From contig JABCYZ010000002.1 of assembly GCA_013289955.1 (NCBI GenBank), forward strand, positions 372,001 to 436,000: a stretch of 64,000 nt of DNA, read 5' to 3'. This DNA comes from Acidobacteriota bacterium (lineage in GTDB: Bacteria; Acidobacteriota; Terriglobia; Acidiferrales; UBA7541). Positions 42,143 through 50,214 of the stretch are shown piece by piece. Under the pieces are notes generated by a model that ran no database searches, was not told the origin of the DNA, and saw only the letters and a list, made by a program, of their open reading frames with translations. Each line of letters starts with the position of its first letter. Position 1 is the stretch's first letter. The position numbers and the translations under genes were made by a program.

Positions 42143-43558
42143 CTATCGCAGCATCGGGCCGATCCGCTGCAGCGAAGCGGCAAAGTGGTCGGCGTTGTAC
42201 GCCGAAGGGTTTTCGAGCTGCCGGAAAAGCTCGTTGATACCGGCGCGAACCTCGTCGGCGTTTCCAGGTTTCGCGTCCTTGCTGTAGGCGATATACAACG
42301 AATCCATGGCCATCGCCGCTTGCTCCGCGGCGCGCTCATCGGCAAGCGATATATTCTCGGCATCGTCCGAGATCCATTGCAACGTGCGCAGCACGGTAGC
42401 TCGGTCGTATGGCATCGCCGCGAGCCTCTCGGCAAAACGCTGCGCCACCGGCGCGGCAGCGGAAGCCGACGACGCGACGACACCGCGGTCCGGACTTAGC
42501 TTGGACATTTCGCCCGACACCTCGAGCAGTCTGCGATCGAGTTCTTCGGCGCCGGCGGAATCGATTTGTTTGGCGAGCAAGCGAAACACGATATAGCGCG
42601 AACTGTTCCATGCAGGATCGCCAGGACGCCGTCCGGCGAATCCATGCTCCTGCCGCCAGCTGTCTTTGGCGGGCGCGAGCGCGTGGTGGCACGCAAAACA
42701 GGAAAGCTCAGAGTATTCGGGCCACACTTCCTTTTTGTCGAAGCGCTCGCCCTTTGCGCGCCACGTCAGCCGCTCCATCTCGGCACGAAGCTGCACCGCT
42801 TGGCCCGTGCTCCAATCGCGCACGCCGGCCCACGACGCGTCTTCCACCGGTTTGCCGGGCGTCGATTCGCGCGGCGATTTCCAGTGGCGCGGCATCACCG
42901 CGGAAAATGAATCCAACTCGAAAAATAGATCCGGATGGCCGGCGGCGATCATTTCGTGATCGACGAATTTTTCTTTCGTGCCGAGATGGCACTCGAGACA
43001 TTTTTCGGTTCGGTGAATCACGTCGCGCGTATCGCGCATGCCCAGCGCGACCGATTTTTCGTGCGGCCAGTCGCGGGTAGTGTGCGGTCCCAGCCAGGCA
43101 GACGCGGGTCCGTGGCAATTTTCGCAGGAGACGCCTTCGGACAATTCGAACGGACGGCCGCGCTGCTCCGGCGTCGTATAGAGGGCATGACAAGCCAAAC
43201 ATTTCGGCGCTTCTTCGGCTTTCGCATTGAGTTTGAGGATACGGGCGATGCGTTCCCCGATGTCTCCGGTCAGATCTTGATACGCGCGGCTGTGCCTGTC
43301 TTTGACAATCCAGGTGGAGTATTCGTTTTGGAGAATGCGGCTGCCGGCTACGGGTTTGACGCTGCCGTGGCAGCTCGTGGCGGCGCAGGAGCCGGGCCCA
43401 ATGTATTTCACGGGTTCGCCGTTCGAATCGCCCTTTGACTCGGCAGACCTGGAGGCACCGCCTTCGGTCGCGGATAGCCGAAGGGCGGGCGCAAAAGGCA
43501 GAAGAAGCGCAGCGCACAGCGCCGCGTGCAGCCAATGGGGTTTGGGGGCAATTCGCAT
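42143..43558 (-). CDS. Secreted multiheme cytochrome c (cytochrome c554-like)
   Basis: From the ATG at 43558 the 471-residue protein has a signal peptide (WLHAALCAALLLPFAPALRLSA). Its heme sites are four CxxCH motifs (CLACH, CENCH, CLECH, CFACH) plus one CxxxxCH (CAATSCH), and further His residues (DRHSRAY, DHEMIAAGHPD) could be distal ligands. The layout matches multiheme cytochrome c554-related proteins; the C-terminal 150 residues are helical and heme-free. It is transcribed away from the NADH-FeS gene, sharing a 202-bp divergent regulatory region with it, so a functional link to that operon is likely. Confidence 0.85.
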   Translation of the reverse strand: MRIAPKPHWLHAALCAALLLPFAPALRLSATEGGASRSAESKGDSNGEPVKYIGPGSCAATSCHGSVKPVAGSRILQNEYSTWIVKDRHSRAYQDLTGDIGERIARILKLNAKAEEAPKCLACHALYTTPEQRGRPFELSEGVSCENCHGPASAWLGPHTTRDWPHEKSVALGMRDTRDVIHRTEKCLECHLGTKEKFVDHEMIAAGHPDLFFELDSFSAVMPRHWKSPRESTPGKPVEDASWAGVRDWSTGQAVQLRAEMERLTWRAKGERFDKKEVWPEYSELSCFACHHALAPAKDSWRQEHGFAGRRPGDPAWNSSRYIVFRLLAKQIDSAGAEELDRRLLEVSGEMSKLSPDRGVVASSASAAAPVAQRFAERLAAMPYDRATVLRTLQWISDDAENISLADERAAEQAAMAMDSLYIAYSKDAKPGNADEVRAGINELFRQLENPSAYNADHFAASLQRIGPMLR

Positions 43559-43610
43559 TCGCGATGACGGATTCGTTCGCCCAATTATCGGGTGGAAGCT
43601 GCGTCGGATG

Positions 43611-43647
43611 CGTTGTCTTTTTCGCGGCGTGGCGCGAAAAGGCAACG
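43611..43647. promoter_or_regulatory. Long imperfect dyad in the divergent region of the redox locus
   Basis: Left arm CGTTGTCTTTTTCGCG (43611-43626) and right arm CGCGAAAAGGCAACG (43633-43647) are inverted with one mismatch and one bulged base around GCGTGG. The dyad is centred about 63 bp before the predicted start of the NuoF-type gene, a position typical of upstream activator sites. It could instead form an RNA hairpin in the leader of the divergent cytochrome gene. Confidence 0.5.
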
Positions 43648-43656
43648 GGGCTTCTA

Positions 43657-43685
43657 TTTACAGGGCGGTTGGGCGTCAGTAGTAT
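43657..43685 (+). promoter_or_regulatory. Predicted promoter of the NADH-FeS-cytochrome operon
   Basis: TTTACA (43657-43662; five of six consensus bases) is spaced exactly 17 bp from TAGTAT (43680-43685; four of six). The predicted start near 43692 leaves a leader of about 70 nt before the GTG start codon at 43761. It abuts the dyad at 43611-43647. Confidence 0.6.
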
Positions 43686-43760
43686 GCAGGAGAATCCGTA
43701 CTACACTCCACGCCGGGTGGCACGACCTGACCGGCGCCTTTCGATGCGAGATGCCGCGCC

Positions 43761-45479
43761 GTGATCTTCGACGACCTGCGAGCTATTCAGCTTCGCTATG
43801 GCTTCTTGCCCAAGGCCGAACTCGAGGCGTTTTCCCAACGTTCGAACACGCCTCTGTATCAAATTCACAGCGTCGCAAGTTTCTATCCACATTTTCAGCT
43901 TGTCCCGCCGCCCAAGGCGGATGTTCGCGTTTGCGCGGATATGAGCTGCCACTTAAACGGGGCTTGCGAACTGCGCGCGGAATTGGAGCAGCGCCTTGGG
44001 AAAAGCAGTCCTGCTGATCTACTGATACGGGACGTTTCCTGCCTCGGCCGGTGCGATCACGCGCCGGCGGTTTCCATCAACGATGAGATTTTCACGGGCG
44101 TGACGGCCGCCTCGGCGGAGGCGATTGCGCGAAAGGCAATCCTTGGCGAAGCGATTCCCGAGCCTCATCCAGGGCACGCGCGAGTGCAGTGTGCATCCGA
44201 TCCCTACAACAGCGAGGAAAAGTACGGCGTCATTCGGAAGCTGGCGGCGACCAAAGACTGGGACGCGGTGTTGGCGGAGCTGAAATTGTCGGAACTGCGG
44301 GGAATGGGCGGTGCCGGATTTCCGACGAGCATGAAGTGGGATTTGGTCCGCAAGCAGCCTGGCGCGGAGAAATACATCGTTTGCAACGCGGACGAGAGCG
44401 AGCCGGGGACGATCAAAGACCGCTTCATCATGACGCATCTTCCGCACCTCGTGATGGAGGGCATGATCGTCGCCGGACTGGTGACGGGAGCACAAAAAGG
44501 AATCCTCTACATCCGGCATGAGTATCACCTGCAGAAAGAAATTCTCGGCGAAGAGTTGCGGCGCTGCTATCGCGATGGTTTGCTCGGAAAGAACATTTTG
44601 AAGAGCGGCCTTACCTTTGATCTGGAAATTTTTGTCAGCCCCGGCGGATACATTTGCGGTGAAGAAACCGCGCTGATTGAGGCGATCGAAGGCAAGCGCG
44701 CGGAGCCGCGAAACAAACCGCCATTCCCCGTGCAGGCTGGATTATGGCAGAAGCCGACGGTTCTGAATAACGTGGAGACGTTCGCGAATGTGCCGCAGAT
44801 TTTGGCGCGCGGCGTGGAGTGGTTTGCCGCGCAAGGAGAATCGGGATCGCGCGGTTTGAAATTTGTCGGAGTCAGCGGGCATGCGGCGAAACCGGGAATT
44901 TACGAAGTGGCGATGGGAATCCCGATGCGCAAAGTTTTGTTCGAGTACGCGGGAGGAATTCGCGGCGGGCGGCAATTGAAGGCGTTCGCGCCTTCGGGGC
45001 CTTCTTCGGGGTATTTGCCGGCGTCGATGGTGGACGTGCGGCTGGATTTCAAGGCGCTGGCGGAGGCAGGGTCGATGCTGGGGTCAGGCGCCATTGTGGT
45101 TTGCGACGATAGGACCTGCATGCTGGATATGGCCTTGAACGCAGTGCGATTTTATCGCAATGAATCGTGCGGAAAGTGCGTACCGTGCCGGGTGGGGTCG
45201 CAGAAGATGACGGATTTGCTGGTACGGTGGACGCATGGGGGCGTGGCGGAAAAGCAGTACCAGGCGGATCTGGCCTTGGTCGATGAGCTTTGCCAGGCCA
45301 TGAGTCTGACTTCGATCTGCGGTTTGGGACAAATTGTGCCCGCACCGGTACAGTCGGTTTTGAAGCATTTTCGGGAAGAGATTGATGCGCATGTTTTGAA
45401 GGGCCAGTGTCCCAGCGGGATTTGTTTCACGGCGGCGGCGAAGGCGGGAGAGGCGTCGCGCGTGGGGATACGGCCGTAG
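43761..45479 (+). CDS. NADH-oxidising NuoE/NuoF-type fusion subunit
   Basis: The 572-residue cytoplasmic protein should pass electrons between NAD(H), FMN and FeS clusters. Residues 1-110 are a NuoE-like thioredoxin-fold domain with [2Fe-2S] ligands Cys58, Cys63, Cys94 and Cys98. The NuoF domain follows: NADH/FMN loop RGMGGAGFPTSMKW (180-193), NADESEPGT, and GGYICGEETALIEAIEG (295-311). The [4Fe-4S] ligands are Cys470, Cys473, Cys476 and Cys520. The start is GTG with a weak ribosome-binding site. It resembles HoxF and the beta subunit of NAD-dependent formate dehydrogenase, but no hydrogenase, formate dehydrogenase or complex I gene accompanies it. Confidence 0.92.
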   Translation: MIFDDLRAIQLRYGFLPKAELEAFSQRSNTPLYQIHSVASFYPHFQLVPPPKADVRVCADMSCHLNGACELRAELEQRLGKSSPADLLIRDVSCLGRCDHAPAVSINDEIFTGVTAASAEAIARKAILGEAIPEPHPGHARVQCASDPYNSEEKYGVIRKLAATKDWDAVLAELKLSELRGMGGAGFPTSMKWDLVRKQPGAEKYIVCNADESEPGTIKDRFIMTHLPHLVMEGMIVAGLVTGAQKGILYIRHEYHLQKEILGEELRRCYRDGLLGKNILKSGLTFDLEIFVSPGGYICGEETALIEAIEGKRAEPRNKPPFPVQAGLWQKPTVLNNVETFANVPQILARGVEWFAAQGESGSRGLKFVGVSGHAAKPGIYEVAMGIPMRKVLFEYAGGIRGGRQLKAFAPSGPSSGYLPASMVDVRLDFKALAEAGSMLGSGAIVVCDDRTCMLDMALNAVRFYRNESCGKCVPCRVGSQKMTDLLVRWTHGGVAEKQYQADLALVDELCQAMSLTSICGLGQIVPAPVQSVLKHFREEIDAHVLKGQCPSGICFTAAAKAGEASRVGIRP

Positions 45480-45615
45480 AAAAAGTGAAGTAAAGAAGCA
45501 ATGACGCAAGGAGAGAAGGAAAAAAGAAGGGAAAGACTCGTCGCCGAGACTCAGAGGAAGCCGAGAAGAGAAAGAAAAAGCAGGAAGAGCAGGAAGAAAA
45601 GACAAAGCGAGGATT
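45480..45615 (+). other. Purine-rich spacer between the NuoF-type and FeS/CNB genes
   Basis: This 136-bp spacer is almost purely A and G on the plus strand apart from a short CTCGTCGCCGAGACTC island, in sharp contrast with its surroundings. It encodes no recognisable protein; a Lys/Arg-rich frame at 45502-45630 is probably a by-product of composition. The 3' end supplies GCGAGGA for the next gene. Confidence 0.5.
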
Positions 45616-47787
45616 GTGAGCACGATTAGCCGATTGCCGGAGTTGGTGGAGATCACGATCGATGGACGACCGGTCCGGGTGGCCGCGGGGACGAGTGTGT
45701 TTGATGCGGCGCGGATGAATGGGACGGCGATTCCTACGCTTTGCCATCTGCAGAATGAGACGCCGGTGGGGGTGTGCCGGCTTTGCGTGGTAGACACCGG
45801 TGCGCGAGTGCTCGCGGCGTCGTGCGTGCGGCCCGTCGAGCCGGGTATGAAGGTGGTGACGAATTCCGAAAAAGTGTTGTCCGCGCGAAAGACTTTGCTG
45901 GAACTTTTGATGGCCGATCATCCTTCGCCTTGCGCGCGGCAGGAAAAATCCGGGGATTGCGAGCTGGAGACCTTGGCGCAGGCGGCGGGTGTTACGCAGC
46001 CGCGTTTTCTGAAGCGCACGGTTTCGCGTGGGATCGATGATTCTTCGCTGGCCATTGCCGTGGATCACGACGCGTGCATTTTGTGCGACCGGTGCATCCG
46101 CGGCTGCAACGAAATCAAAAACAATTTTGTGCTTGGCCGGATGGGGAAGGGCTATTCGGCGGGAATTGCCTTCGATTTGAACGCAGCGATGGGGGATTCG
46201 ACATGTATTTCGTGCGGGGAGTGCATGGTTTCCTGCCCCACCGGCGCGTTGACCAACAAGACCGTTGTGGGCACATCCATTGCAGCGGGGTCAGACGCAG
46301 AGGGGTTCGAAGCGGAAGAGCTTTTGCAGCTGCCGGTGTTCAAGGGCGTTTCGGGGACATTTCTTGAGCTGAATCGCGGGGCAATCGTCAAACGGAGATT
46401 TCGTCCAGGCGAGATTATTTGCCGCGAGGGCGAATTCGGTTCGACGGCCTTTTATATTCTGGAAGGCAAAGCGCGCGTTTCGCTTTCTGCGCCGATTGCG
46501 CACGTAAAAACACAGGGCGGCGCGAAAGGGCTTTTCAAGAAGCTTACCAGTACGCTCGCGGCACGGGACGCGGACGTCCGCTCCGAGGAGACTCGCGACA
46601 GAACGATCCCTATCGATGCGTCCGTGGACCTCGCCTATGGAAATCCGGTAGCGGAACTCGGTTCCGGCGATTTGTTCGGCGAGATGACATGCATGAATTT
46701 CTACCCGCGGTCGGCGACGGTGATTGCGGAGACGGATGTCGTGGCATTCGAGATGTTGAGAAACGTGCTCGACATCATGATGAAGAACAAATCGTTCCGC
46801 GCCCAGATCGACCAGAACTACCGCAAGCGGGCGCTGGAAAACCACTTGCGCGGCGTGCCCATGTTTGCGGATCTTTCGCCGGATTTTATCGAGCATTTGA
46901 AGGGCAGCGTGGAACTGCAGCGATTCGCACCTGGACAAATCATCGCCCGGCAGGGCGATGCGGCGGGGAGTTTTTATCTGGTGCGCATCGGGTTTGTGAA
47001 GATTTCGGAAACATATCCTGGTGGAGAGCTGGTGCTAGCGTATCTATCGCGCGGAGATTATTTCGGAGAAATTGGCTTGCTGGGAGGCGGCGTGCGGACC
47101 GCGACTTGCACGGCGCTGGATCATGTGGAATTGGTGCGCATCTCCGGCGGCGATTTCCGCGACATGGTGGAGCGCTTCCCGAGCGTGCGCCAAGGGCTGG
47201 AAGCTGTGGCTGCAGAGCGCGCCACCCAGAATCAGCAACGCATGCAGACGGTTCGCAGCGTGCCCATCGACCAGTTTCTTTCGCAAGGTTTGATGGAAGC
47301 GCAGAGCCTGCTGATTCTCGATTTGAACAGTTGCACCCGCTGCGACGCTTGTGTGAACGCCTGCGCCGACGCGCACGACGGAGTCACGCGGCTGGTGCGC
47401 GAGGGTTTGCGCTTCGAACAGTATCTGGTGGCGACTTCTTGCCGGCAGTGCCGCGATCCGCTGTGCATGGTGGGTTGTCCGGTGGGATCGATCCGGCGGC
47501 GAAATTCGCTGGAAGTGATCATCGAAGATTGGTGCATCGGTTGCGGTTTGTGCGCGCGGAATTGTCCTTATGGAAATATTAATCTGCATCCTTTTGACGT
47601 GATGGTGGACGACCTGGAACGGCCGGGGCGGAAGAAAGCCGTCGTTAAGCAGAAGGCCACTTCGTGCGATTTGTGCACGCATTTGAAGGAGCCGAGCTGC
47701 GTCTATGCTTGTCCGCACGATGCAGCGCATCGCGTGGATCCGCGGACGTTTTTTTCGGAGATGCTGGGCGGAGGCAGTTCGAAGTGA
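45616..47787 (+). CDS. Ferredoxin-type electron-transfer protein with two cyclic-nucleotide-binding domains
   Basis: The 723-residue protein joins three modules. Residues 1-215 are NuoG/HoxU-like: [2Fe-2S] ligands Cys43, 54, 57 and 70; a remnant His/Cys cluster site (His102, Cys106, Gln109 where Cys is expected, Cys115); and two [4Fe-4S] motifs (Cys154-164, Cys197-207). Residues about 237-395 and 416-525 are CNB domains with the phosphate-binding Glu and Arg retained (GDLFGEM...PRSATV; GDYFGEI...VRTATC). Residues 565-710 are a HybA/DmsB-like ferredoxin with four [4Fe-4S] motifs. There is no helix-turn-helix, so it is not a Crp-type regulator. GTG start with GCGAGGA. I infer a ligand-modulated electron wire. 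Confidence 0.9.
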   Translation: MSTISRLPELVEITIDGRPVRVAAGTSVFDAARMNGTAIPTLCHLQNETPVGVCRLCVVDTGARVLAASCVRPVEPGMKVVTNSEKVLSARKTLLELLMADHPSPCARQEKSGDCELETLAQAAGVTQPRFLKRTVSRGIDDSSLAIAVDHDACILCDRCIRGCNEIKNNFVLGRMGKGYSAGIAFDLNAAMGDSTCISCGECMVSCPTGALTNKTVVGTSIAAGSDAEGFEAEELLQLPVFKGVSGTFLELNRGAIVKRRFRPGEIICREGEFGSTAFYILEGKARVSLSAPIAHVKTQGGAKGLFKKLTSTLAARDADVRSEETRDRTIPIDASVDLAYGNPVAELGSGDLFGEMTCMNFYPRSATVIAETDVVAFEMLRNVLDIMMKNKSFRAQIDQNYRKRALENHLRGVPMFADLSPDFIEHLKGSVELQRFAPGQIIARQGDAAGSFYLVRIGFVKISETYPGGELVLAYLSRGDYFGEIGLLGGGVRTATCTALDHVELVRISGGDFRDMVERFPSVRQGLEAVAAERATQNQQRMQTVRSVPIDQFLSQGLMEAQSLLILDLNSCTRCDACVNACADAHDGVTRLVREGLRFEQYLVATSCRQCRDPLCMVGCPVGSIRRRNSLEVIIEDWCIGCGLCARNCPYGNINLHPFDVMVDDLERPGRKKAVVKQKATSCDLCTHLKEPSCVYACPHDAAHRVDPRTFFSEMLGGGSSK

Positions 47788-47805
47788 CGGCGCGAGGATT
47801 CTTGC

Positions 47806-48753
47806 TTGCGAATTGACAGGACACAACGCGGGTGGGCAATCGCATCGCTGATTATGATTGCGGTGTTCACGGCCGTCTACGTGGCGTATGCGGCGCGCGC
47901 ACCGCAAGGACCGCGTGGCGGCAGCGCATTCGGTTTGACGTTCGGAGTGATTGGATTCGGCTTCATGATTGTCGCGGCGCTGCTGGGCGCGCGAAAGCGC
48001 GTGCCGACCTGGCGCATCGGCCGCGCGCAGGCGTGGATGCGCGGTCATTTGTGGCTGGGTCTACTGAGCTTGCCGGTGATTCTATTTCATGGGGGATTTC
48101 ATTTCGGCGGGACGCTGACGAGCGTGTTGATGTGGCTGTTGATCATTACGGTGGTGAGCGGACTCTTTGGCGCGGAGCTGCAACACTACGTGCCGCGCGT
48201 GATGACCTCGGACGTGAAGCTGGAAACGATTTATGACGAAATCGGGAATGTGCGGAAGCTGTTGCGCGAGGAGGCGGACCGCGCGGTCGAAACGGTTTGT
48301 GGGCCGATCGGGGTCGGTAAATCGGCGAGCGAGGAAGTCTTGCGCGCGGGCGGGCTCAGCGCGGCACGGCCCATGTCTCTGACGGGCAGCCTAGGAGCGG
48401 TGGCCGCTGCCGCGGAGACGGCGGTACTGACCGAAGAGGAGTGCGCGCCGCTGCGGCAGTTCTATCTGAGCGAGATGCGGCCGTTTCTCGAGCAGCCGCG
48501 GGTCCGCGGATCGCGGCTGGGCGATGCGGATAAAGCGCACGGAGCGTTCAGCGGATTGCGGACGTTGCTGCCGCCGCCGGCGCAAGCTACGGTAGAGGAC
48601 TTGGAAGATATTTGCGATGAGGCGCGGCAACTTGTGCGGCAGGAGCGGCTTCATCATTTGTTACACGGGTGGCTGCTCGTGCACATTCCGCTCTCGCTGG
48701 CGCTGATTATCTTGGGTGCGGTGCATGCGGTGATGGCTTTACGCTATTCATGA
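47806..48753 (+). CDS. Cytochrome-b-like membrane protein of the redox operon
   Basis: The 315-residue protein (TTG start, GCGAGGA upstream, 18 bp after the previous stop) has four N-terminal membrane helices (about residues 10-30, 42-62, 80-99, 104-125), a cytoplasmic or periplasmic domain of about 155 residues, and a fifth helix near 287-311. Histidines in or next to helices (His81, His95, His99, His127; His283, 284, 287, 293, 307) are placed as in heme-b membrane subunits. It would carry electrons across the membrane between the FeS protein and the periplasmic decaheme cytochrome. No exact family is recognised. Confidence 0.75.
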   Translation: MRIDRTQRGWAIASLIMIAVFTAVYVAYAARAPQGPRGGSAFGLTFGVIGFGFMIVAALLGARKRVPTWRIGRAQAWMRGHLWLGLLSLPVILFHGGFHFGGTLTSVLMWLLIITVVSGLFGAELQHYVPRVMTSDVKLETIYDEIGNVRKLLREEADRAVETVCGPIGVGKSASEEVLRAGGLSAARPMSLTGSLGAVAAAAETAVLTEEECAPLRQFYLSEMRPFLEQPRVRGSRLGDADKAHGAFSGLRTLLPPPAQATVEDLEDICDEARQLVRQERLHHLLHGWLLVHIPLSLALIILGAVHAVMALRYS

Positions 48754-48768
48754 AGCGGTGAGTGACGG

Positions 48769-50214
48769 GTGGCGAGAACACGAACAACTAAGAAATTGGC
48801 CCAGCGGATCGACCTGAATTATTTCAAGAGGCCGACGTCGCTGAAGCGCGCGAAGTTTTGGCTAAGCGCGGGATTGCCGGCCATCGCGCTGGTTTGGATT
48901 GCATGGCACGGATTCGCTCGAGACTCGCGCGTATATTCCAGCGGGCGGATGAGCGAGGCGCACGCGGTATTGGAGGCGCAGTGCACGGCGTGCCATTTGC
49001 AAACGGCGGGGGCGTTTTCGGCGAAGGCCAGCGATGCCGCTTGTTCAGCGTGCCATGACGGGCCGCTGCACCATGCGGCGCTAACGAACACGGCTGGCTG
49101 CGCGACATGTCACACCGAGCACCGCGGGCGCGTGGATATTGTTGCGGCGAAGAACGAAAGCTGCGCGCAGTGCCACGGGGATTTAAAGACAAGCAACGGC
49201 GTGAGGAGCCGCTATGCCGCGCACATTGAGAGTCTTCAGAATGGGCATCCGGAGTTTGCGCCGCTGCGCCGGGAAGCAAACAGGGTGCGGCTTCCCACGA
49301 CAGTTCGGCTGAACCACGCGATTCACATGAAGCCAATCCGGCGAGGCCCGAATGGACCCAATGTGCAGCTCGAGTGCGGGAATTGCCATCGTCCAAGCGC
49401 GGCAAGCCCGGACCTGACGTATTCAGATGGACGTTACGTAACCGCAACCGTCAGCTATGGAAACCGGTCCGCGTTATTACCGAACACTGGAATCCTGCAA
49501 CCCGCAAAACCAGCTACCGGGCGCGAGTTGATGGCGCCGGTGAAATTCGCGACAGCGTGCGCAGGGTGTCATTTGCTGACGTTCGACAGGAGGCTCGATC
49601 TTGGTGTACCACATGACGAGCCAAAAGTGGTCCACGCATTTTTGATCGCGGCGTTTTCCGAGTATATCCGCGCCCATCCAGCCGAACTGCGGGAAGCCGT
49701 TGAACCCGGACGCGATTTAACAGGCAGGCCAATGGCCGCAAACACGCGTGTTTACACGCCGAACCAGTGGGTAGCCTCACGCGTATACGATGCGGAGCAG
49801 TTGTTGTGGCGGAAGACCTGCGCTCAGTGTCATGAGCTGAGTATCCGGCTCGCGGGCGCCGCACCGCCGGTTGCTCCTTGGCTTACGGTGAGTCCGGAGC
49901 AGATTTTGACCGCGCCGATTTTTCCCGAGATCCAGTTGGCCGCAGATCCCGGGCCGCGAATGCCGCACGCGAAATTCGATCATGATGCGCACCGGGGATT
50001 TGCCTGCGAGGGCTGTCATCTGAAAGCGCTGAGCAGCACTGAGACGAGCGACGTGCTTTTGCCGGGGATCGCCGCCTGCAAGACTTGCCACGCGCCTGGG
50101 CCTGAACACGCAGAATCGCGCTGCTTTGAATGCCACACGTACCACGATTGGTCGAAGCGAAAAGAAGTGAAGCCGACGTTTATGCTGCCGGCCCTTCGAA
50201 CTGGCGGCCGTTAA
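48769..50214 (+). CDS. Membrane-anchored decaheme cytochrome c
   Basis: The 481-residue protein starts with GTG, has a membrane anchor (FWLSAGLPAIALVWIAWHGFA, about residues 30-50) and ten CxxCH heme sites: CTACH, CSACH, CATCH, CAQCH, CGNCH, CAGCH, CAQCH, CEGCH, CKTCH and CFECH. Additional histidines (LNHAIHMK, FDHDAHRGF) are suitable distal ligands, a pattern of c3/c7-like clusters. It follows the membrane subunit by 15 bp and is the last gene of the operon. A role as periplasmic electron donor or acceptor module is inferred. Confidence 0.9.
   Translation: MARTRTTKKLAQRIDLNYFKRPTSLKRAKFWLSAGLPAIALVWIAWHGFARDSRVYSSGRMSEAHAVLEAQCTACHLQTAGAFSAKASDAACSACHDGPLHHAALTNTAGCATCHTEHRGRVDIVAAKNESCAQCHGDLKTSNGVRSRYAAHIESLQNGHPEFAPLRREANRVRLPTTVRLNHAIHMKPIRRGPNGPNVQLECGNCHRPSAASPDLTYSDGRYVTATVSYGNRSALLPNTGILQPAKPATGRELMAPVKFATACAGCHLLTFDRRLDLGVPHDEPKVVHAFLIAAFSEYIRAHPAELREAVEPGRDLTGRPMAANTRVYTPNQWVASRVYDAEQLLWRKTCAQCHELSIRLAGAAPPVAPWLTVSPEQILTAPIFPEIQLAADPGPRMPHAKFDHDAHRGFACEGCHLKALSSTETSDVLLPGIAACKTCHAPGPEHAESRCFECHTYHDWSKRKEVKPTFMLPALRTGGR

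Follow-up and report, generated by a model that had tools for sequence, protein, structure and literature searches.

Several described systems resemble parts of the locus reported here. In the N-module of complex I (NuoEFG) and in the HoxEFU diaphorase, NADH enters at subunits whose NuoE/NuoF fold and ligands we also find, together with a NuoG/HoxU-type N-terminal ferredoxin. In the DmsB/NarH/FdnH-HydN plus cytochrome b modules a four-cluster ferredoxin feeds a multi-His membrane cytochrome, a plan that the locus appears to repeat and that is quinone-reactive in formate dehydrogenase-N, NarGHI and hydrogenases. NOX, STEAP and MsrPQ are alike in that NAD(P)H on the inner side supplies b hemes spanning the membrane, with reduction outside, and NOX is controlled by regulators. 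The MtrCAB and Geobacter OmcB/Ext conduits share with relatives of the locus an inner-membrane supply, periplasmic multihemes, a probable barrel and a large multiheme protein, and multiheme conduits of similar kind serve electron uptake in iron oxidisers. Finally, the Glu and Arg of the cyclic-nucleotide cassettes are as in CRP, PKG, CNG channels and the Mycobacterium Pat acetyltransferase, with a tandem arrangement of CNB domains that resembles PKG.

The locus lies in a 64,000-nucleotide stretch of DNA from an Acidobacteriota bacterium (the window, by which we mean that whole stretch) and comprises five genes at 42143-50214, all of them confirmed there, with the following features.

42143..43645, minus strand: secreted tetraheme c-type cytochrome, divergent (four CxxCH; Cytochrome_C554, PF13435, 45.3 bits)
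43761..45479, plus strand: NuoE-NuoF fusion (NuoEF), predicted NADH-oxidising FMN subunit (PF01257, 2Fe-2S_thioredx; PF01512, Complex1_51K; PF10589, NADH_4Fe-4S)
45616..47787, plus strand: CNB-ferredoxin, central iron-sulfur wire protein with two CNB domains (from domain and NCBIfam matches and conserved residues)
45646..46266, plus strand: HoxU/NuoG/HydA-type N-terminal ferredoxin region of the CNB-ferredoxin, with a 2Fe2S, a degenerate N5-like and two 4Fe4S sites
46333..46800, plus strand: CNB domain 1 (PF00027; cassette FGEMTC[ML]x3PRSAT at 46675-46719), interrupted by a variable insertion
46873..47205, plus strand: CNB domain 2 (PF00027, best stretch 435-520; cassette FGE(x)8RTAT at 47062-47106)
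47308..47730, plus strand: C-terminal DmsB/HydN-like ferredoxin module with four 4Fe4S motifs (HydN 62.3 bits and DmsB 53.3 bits, both under cut-off; Cys invariant)
47806..48753, plus strand: probable diheme cytochrome b, five predicted TM helices plus a helical domain on the cytoplasmic side (one HX13H pair each in TM3 and TM5)
48769..50214, plus strand: decaheme c-type cytochrome with an N-terminal TM anchor (ten CxxCH; PF14522, PF14537)

Across 80 loci that carry the CNB-ferredoxin, mostly in Acidobacteriota, NuoEF is a partner in 77, the membrane protein in 76 and the decaheme cytochrome in 73, with the divergent tetraheme cytochrome adjoining in 66; identity among loci is roughly 55-90% for NuoEF and the CNB-ferredoxin. 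Most complete loci repeat the window's gene order, and the heme motif counts (ten in the decaheme, four in the tetraheme cytochrome) hold in nearly every complete copy. Because the order recurs and these counts are almost always kept, the cluster is not a product of chance, and the five genes form a conserved unit. A preliminary description of this DNA had named five clustered genes, among them an iron-sulfur protein with two CNB domains, a decaheme cytochrome and a divergent multiheme cytochrome c, and this is borne out by the coordinates, the domains (including PF00027 twice and four 4Cys motifs), the recurring order and the heme counts; homologues of the CNB-ferredoxin, for which it had raised the possibility of unrelated contexts, share the same context instead. 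The membrane protein is present in each of the six CNB-ferredoxin genomes tested; in Planctomycetota its gene is unlinked. A glycoside-hydrolase-like gene (F901) is another recurrent neighbour, occurring at several positions, so synteny alone may carry passengers. No RNA families or tRNAs were found in the window, and a literature search of open-access papers returned none on this gene combination.

NuoEF scores 464.8 bits against the NuoF model, under the complex I cut-off of 558.65, and its NuoE 2Fe2S ligands, N3 4Fe4S ligands and NADH/FMN motifs are conserved in 76 sequences; we infer that NADH would be its substrate and NADH oxidation its activity. Input to the core comes in three variants: NuoEF with a HoxU-like domain, as in the window; a fused flavoprotein (Pyr_redox); and a separate flavoprotein, encoded by a Pyr_redox-FHA-Fer2 gene that adjoins the core. 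The CNB2-4x[4Fe4S] part, the cytochrome b and the decaheme are constant across these variants; sequence comparison shows that the part oxidising NAD(P)H can be exchanged on this constant core. The window genome also has a NuoF/NuoG pair apart from the cluster, which is probably that of complex I.

The N-terminal ferredoxin region of the CNB-ferredoxin (residues 11-217) matches the NCBIfam models of HoxU and FeFe hydrogenase A6, and in the PDB it matches HydA1 and NuoG. At its N5-like site His102, Cys106 and Cys115 are invariant, and position 109 is Gln, Glu or His, not Cys, in all aligned sequences that cover it. PF00027 is matched twice (129.3 bits against a cut-off of 27.5), and among 84 aligned sequences of the NuoEF type Glu356 and Arg365 of CNB domain 1 are kept in every one, with Glu485 and Arg494 of CNB domain 2 kept in 83 and 82, respectively; PDB profiles of cGMP-dependent protein kinases match residues 400-534, in CNB domain 2. 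The C-terminal four-cluster module is the probable electron donor to the membrane cytochrome, and the cluster content given here for both ferredoxin parts is that predicted from their motifs. The structure model of the whole protein is too poor (pLDDT 60.7) for use in judging the gating geometry. In one relative, L129, a single CNB2-4Fe4S-5TM chain fuses the CNB-ferredoxin to the membrane protein.

In the membrane protein itself, His81, 95, 293 and 307 are invariant in 49 sequences and form two pairs with HX13H spacing, which would hold the two predicted hemes. The earlier label 'His-rich' is too simple for this cytochrome-b-like protein, as only these four His are invariant. Its structure model has a pLDDT of 87.8, its PF01292 match is weak (17.6 bits against a cut-off of 30.1), and Foldseek returned helical-bundle noise only; among the hits of a second look, STEAP1 and cytochrome b561 are at Z ~7, likewise within such noise. 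The decaheme cytochrome is a probable periplasmic electron acceptor, and the tetraheme cytochrome a probable periplasmic shuttle or partner.

In 22 of the 80 loci, against an expected 0.2-0.4, the cluster has a class III nucleotide cyclase nearby, usually one linked to CHASE2; PF00211 is present in 23 of 24 scanned cyclase proteins and the metal-binding Asp motif in most. The Sphingobium version of the cluster carries a SpdA/CpdA-like phosphodiesterase gene. Within the flanks covered, none of the 19 loci of the window's own close clade has a cyclase, and the two cyclase genes of the window genome lie ~78 kb off and on another contig.

Relatives also place the core beside candidate outer-membrane components. 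In L130-L132 it shares one operon with a candidate outer-membrane barrel and a 9-10-heme propeller cytochrome, and co-occurrence of core and barrel/propeller is 7/9 versus 20/199 (P ~1e-6, with no phylogenetic correction). A separate protein, an NDH2-CNB fusion, is also encoded next to this outer module. The barrel assignment is probable and comes from a C-terminal Phe/Tyr in 20 of 20 candidates and from strand periodicity (z 2.3), not from a fold; PDB profile searches with the barrel and the propeller cytochrome yielded nothing more than the small carboxypeptidase-regulatory-like domain at the N-terminus and one octaheme match, which was very weak. A lipobox is absent from the 14 large propeller cytochromes checked, and the large cytochrome matches the Geobacter ExtM model NF040943 in two short stretches (73.1 bits against a cut-off of 800). 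In the window genome the candidate barrel and propeller cytochrome are on another contig (C44), where a SthA-type transhydrogenase gene adjoins them. Since core, barrel and propeller share an operon in relatives, the path probably carries electrons as far as the outer membrane or past it, and the conduit does not seem to be 'stand-alone', as had been proposed.

We favour, with a little better than even confidence, the reading that the cluster makes an electron conduit in the inner membrane which oxidises NADH, is controlled by cyclic nucleotides, and reaches from NADH to the periplasm and probably to the outside. NADH would reduce FMN on NuoEF, from which electrons would enter the CNB-ferredoxin, move along its HoxU-like clusters to the four-cluster module at its C-terminus, cross the membrane via the two b hemes of the five-TM protein, and reach the periplasm-anchored decaheme and then the tetraheme cytochrome. 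The two CNB domains would sit mid-wire and are most likely the binding sites for a cyclic nucleotide that class III cyclases produce; once bound, it would change how the NADH module is coupled to the membrane module. Such a gate would be useful because a wire from NADH to the periplasm that stayed open would deplete NADH and, as the electrons would be leaving the negative side, run down the membrane potential too. The preliminary description had likewise drawn a path from cytoplasm through membrane to periplasm, of which the parts and the conserved gene set stand while NADH oxidation and direction are predictions from sequence; its ligand gating now has canonical cNMP cassettes and nearby cyclases in its favour, though binding and gating are themselves predicted. 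A more specific version, which we advance tentatively as possible, has CHASE2-cyclases sensing an external signal and the nucleotide on the tandem CNB domains opening or closing NADH-to-surface electron flow, in several phyla and with interchangeable NAD(P)H modules; the wire would then be an analogue, for electrons, of cyclic-nucleotide-gated ion channels.

The same conduit could instead lack ligand gating, its CNB domains acting as structural spacers or docking domains or binding another ligand, and it would then export electrons constitutively from NADH to the periplasm or surface. This somewhat unlikely arrangement would suit the separate-flavoprotein group L097-L101, in which the cassette Arg is lost from both CNB domains and the core is kept, so that gating cannot be universal, as well as the majority of loci, the window's clade included, that have no nearby cyclase. 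It sits poorly, however, with a Glu and an Arg that are near-invariant in the 84 NuoEF-type sequences and also in the fused-flavoprotein type (L152, L153), with the enrichment of cyclases near the cluster and with the existence of a separate NDH2-CNB fusion next to the outer module. The membrane protein might also trade electrons with the quinone pool, making the cluster an alternative NADH:quinone (or quinol:decaheme) oxidoreductase, as its likeness to the quinone-reactive modules named above and its weak PF01292 match would allow; we consider this unlikely, given that the decaheme, needless for a plain NADH:quinone reductase, is the next gene in nearly all sub-families seen, and that the genome has its separate NuoF/NuoG pair.

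Inward flow, in which electrons from outside or from the periplasm reduce NAD+, draws on the reversibility in principle of flavin/FeS NADH modules and on the similar conduits that iron oxidisers use for uptake, but with typical c hemes it would have to climb in redox potential and also work against the membrane potential, in a cluster with no visible ion pump; an unsystematic look saw no Calvin-cycle or iron-oxidation genes alongside the cluster, and we regard this direction as improbable. That the cluster is a piece of some known NAD-linked dehydrogenase (complex I, a bidirectional hydrogenase or an NAD-dependent formate dehydrogenase) whose catalytic part is encoded elsewhere is highly improbable, even though the best named models of its N-terminal parts are HoxU, FeFe hydrogenase A6 and NuoF and, of the solved structures, HydA1 and formate dehydrogenase alpha come closest: scores fall under all equivalog cut-offs, the cytochrome b and decaheme partner set is constant across the 80 loci, and the N5-like site is without a Cys that those enzymes have. 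The latter two points led us to reject a complex I fragment, and the cluster proteins include no NuoH/J/K/L/M/N and no NuoG C-terminal domain. A hydrogenase fragment was rejected on the absence of a NiFe hydrogenase, PF00374 (its large subunit) having no match at E 0.001 across the ~94% complete genome. Neither the CNB-ferredoxin nor the other cluster proteins contain a molybdopterin catalytic domain of the FdsABG type. As initially noted, no catalytic subunit is present in the cluster; its annotated flanks contain none either.

If the preferred reading of a conduit under cyclic-nucleotide control is true, a second messenger would switch trans-envelope electron export on the carrier itself and not by gene regulation, and messenger-binding (cAMP-type) domains within the wire would be a new on/off switch for such current. 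Soil Acidobacteriota (Granulicella aggregans M8UP14 included) and plasmid-bearing Sphingobium would thereby possess an NAD(P)H-fed pathway dedicated to reduction in the periplasm or outside the cell, and the swappable NAD(P)H module would offer a natural test bed for the evolution of electron wires.

The locus also differs from the described systems. Compared with complex I and HoxEFU, the CNB-ferredoxin is without the molybdopterin-like domain of NuoG and the cluster without a membrane arm or hydrogenase, one N5 Cys is missing, CNB domains are inserted, and output would go to cytochrome b and decaheme. Unlike DmsB-type modules, the cluster has no molybdenum or hydrogenase catalytic subunit, its next carrier would be a decaheme, and its CNB domains precede the ferredoxin. 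Whereas NOX, STEAP and MsrPQ have an unrelated electron input, here a flavin-FeS module would supply the electrons and c-type multihemes would accept them. Relative to porin-cytochrome conduits, a dedicated NAD(P)H complex, not a quinol oxidase, is the predicted donor in the inner membrane, the large cytochrome lacks a lipobox and carries an LVIVD propeller, and the barrel matches no named porin family. To our knowledge there is no characterised CNB protein with an iron-sulfur carrier as its effector, and it is here that the locus departs from known CNB proteins, since its effector domain is an iron-sulfur electron carrier.

The window (contig C2, 372001-436000) belongs to a genome that its relatives place in the Acidobacteriota. 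The five clustered genes reported in the preliminary description are real and lie at the coordinates claimed for them; they are listed here together with the related features discussed below.

Features of the cluster (positions refer to the window unless a locus of a relative or of the window genome is named)
42143-43645, transcribed away from the other four cluster genes: divergent secreted four-heme cytochrome (tetraheme)
43761-45479, + strand: NuoE-NuoF fusion (NuoEF)
45616-47787, + strand: iron-sulfur protein of 723 residues with two cyclic-nucleotide-binding (CNB) domains (CNB-ferredoxin)
45919-45960: N5-like cluster site, CNB-ferredoxin residues 102-115, one Cys ligand absent in 81 of 81 covering members
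47806-48753, + strand: five-TM membrane protein
48769-50214, + strand: decaheme cytochrome
L111:8213-18531, contig C44 of the window genome: propeller cytochrome, barrel candidate, HbpS-like protein and SthA-like transhydrogenase
L129:2804-5260, - strand: CNB2-ferredoxin/five-TM fusion, one 818-residue chain with the 4Fe4S module
L135:2360-3994, + strand, genome G132: NDH-2-type NADH dehydrogenase with a C-terminal CNB domain

As judged from ORFs, a P450 and a methyltransferase lie upstream of the cluster, and a FUSC transporter gene follows downstream; these flanking genes look unrelated to it, and their relatives recur only in the close clade of the window. The spacer between NuoEF and the CNB-ferredoxin (45480-45615) has an unusually high purine content.

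NuoEF retains the NuoE Cys ligands, the glycine-rich motif, the NADEsEP motif and the N3 ligands, while residues 1-217 of the CNB-ferredoxin resemble HoxU, FeFe hydrogenase and NuoG. Within the N5 motif of this region (H-x3-C-x2-C-x5-C), the second Cys is replaced by Gln, Glu or His in all aligned sequences covering the site, with the His and the remaining two Cys invariant, so that the site would hold a three-ligand cluster or be empty. The cassettes of the two CNB domains read FGE..PRSAT and FGE..RTAT; their Glu and Arg are each conserved in 84/84 aligned sequences in the first domain, and in 83/84 and 82/84, respectively, in the second. The C-terminal module, which has four 4Cys motifs, resembles DmsB and HydN. 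In the membrane protein, His81/95 (TM3) and His293/307 (TM5) are invariant across 49 sequences, and the long helices of the structural model (pLDDT 87.8) coincide with the five predicted TM segments; TM4 and TM5 are separated by a helical domain. Loop charges suggest that this domain is cytoplasmic and that each His pair has one member close to the cytoplasmic side and one close to the periplasmic side.

When 84,980 species genomes were scanned with the CNB-ferredoxin, 80 loci were recovered, a set biased to proteins of the window type because the peptide patterns came from the window protein. By profile search, 77 of these 80 loci have NuoEF, 76 the membrane protein, 73 the decaheme and 66 the tetraheme, many of the missing partners being accounted for by contig ends. 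Nearly all complete copies have ten CxxCH motifs in the decaheme and four in the tetraheme, the few deviating copies coming from Planctomycetota and other distant members. In Planctomycetota the NuoEF-CNB pair is unlinked from the membrane protein-decaheme-cytochrome set, with all of them encoded; the membrane protein was found in all six genomes tested. Since the CNB-ferredoxin occurs at E < 1e-60 in 9 of 199 genomes sampled across the phylum, the trait is patchy. Two loci carrying the acidobacterial cluster (L092, L094) belong to public records titled Betaproteobacteria bacterium and Bordetella parapertussis, which look like mislabelled metagenome bins.

Across relatives, a core of CNB2-4Fe4S protein, membrane protein and decaheme is constant, and the NAD(P)H-oxidising part varies. 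The window type uses NuoEF with the HoxU-like domain. In three Acidobacteriota genomes (L151-L153) and on a Sphingobium plasmid, a pyridine-nucleotide-disulfide-type flavoprotein is instead fused to the CNB-ferredoxin (Pfam domains were determined for L151 and the plasmid), and in L098-L101 the flavoprotein is a separate gene adjoining the core, bearing FHA and 2Fe2S domains in L100. We take this replacement of the input module as the best sequence evidence for electron exchange of NAD(P)H with periplasmic hemes. The single chain in L129 is strong evidence that the CNB2-ferredoxin and the five-TM protein touch. The same locus contains a single open frame (L129:2-2674, - strand) in which FHA, Fer4 and pyridine-nucleotide oxidoreductase domains are combined with eight CxxCH, unusually mixing cytoplasmic and periplasmic parts. 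FHA-like domains also occur on decahemes of the fused-flavoprotein type (L151:11660-13984, with two FHA stretches, and L106:14111-15910), hinting at control by phosphorylation.

In the mechanism we propose, electrons from NADH would enter NuoEF, travel through its FMN and clusters and reach the CNB-ferredoxin at the N-terminal clusters. They would leave the CNB-ferredoxin from the four-cluster end, pass over two b hemes of the membrane protein, and continue via the decaheme and tetraheme to an outer module where present. A quinone side reaction may occur at the membrane protein. Outward flow would be favoured by redox potential and membrane voltage and would therefore need a brake, for which the tandem CNB domains, lying between two cluster groups, appear well placed. 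Should such gating be demonstrated, the system would be a new kind of respiratory control.

A second-messenger link is suggested by the recurrent neighbours of the cluster, which include a CHASE2-class III cyclase. Cyclases fall within the fetched flanks of 22 of 80 loci versus 0.2-0.4 expected from background densities per Mb of about 0.45 for the phylum as a whole and about 0.2 for the class of the window. Collapsing loci at 80%, 75% and 70% identity leaves cyclases in 10/32, 4/19 and 2/7 groups, with Poisson values of 7e-4 or less that are approximate because any group member with a cyclase was counted. The genes are placed or oriented in at least six different ways, evidence against a single inherited accident. 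As a caution, a glycoside-hydrolase-like gene is likewise found in several positions near the cluster. Among 24 cyclase proteins scanned, 23 have the catalytic domain, 18 CHASE2 and three FHA-GAF. The sole cyclase of one genome (G023) lies about 9 kb from its CNB-ferredoxin; flanks of loci in the window's own clade contain no adjacent cyclase. In the Sphingobium cluster a CpdA/SpdA-like phosphodiesterase directly follows the decaheme; its scores of 132.6 and 78 bits fall short of the cut-offs. The NDH-2-CNB protein of L135 is a second combination of NADH dehydrogenase and CNB domain, and its gene neighbours tetraheme, propeller cytochrome, barrel, HbpS-like protein and cyclase genes.

Clustering of neighbours identified three further recurrent genes. 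They encode a propeller cytochrome of 1200-1300 residues, in which a C-terminal LVIVD propeller is combined with 9-10 CxxCH; a protein of 700 residues that carries a carboxypeptidase-regulatory-like domain at its N-terminus and whose Phe/Tyr C-terminal end and strand periodicity make it a probable outer-membrane barrel; and an HbpS-like haem-binding protein. All three form one same-strand run with the core and tetraheme in L131 and L132, an order repeated in L130. The propeller cytochrome is present in 7/9 genomes with the CNB-ferredoxin versus 20/199 genomes (without phylogenetic correction, P about 1e-6). In L128, L137 and L139, propeller cytochrome and barrel adjoin 9-heme cytochromes without the CNB core; the outer module is thus an independent partner.

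No report of CNB domains within a respiratory iron-sulfur wire, or of the five-gene set, was found in the open-access papers searched. The outer-membrane conduits of Geobacter have been defined (PMC6148476), and the propeller cytochrome shows weak and partial similarity to Geobacter ExtM, whose cluster is tied to selenite and tellurite reduction (PMC5877670). Every component of the gene set has known relatives, and we regard the five-gene system as a new variant among the conduits that carry electrons across the envelope.
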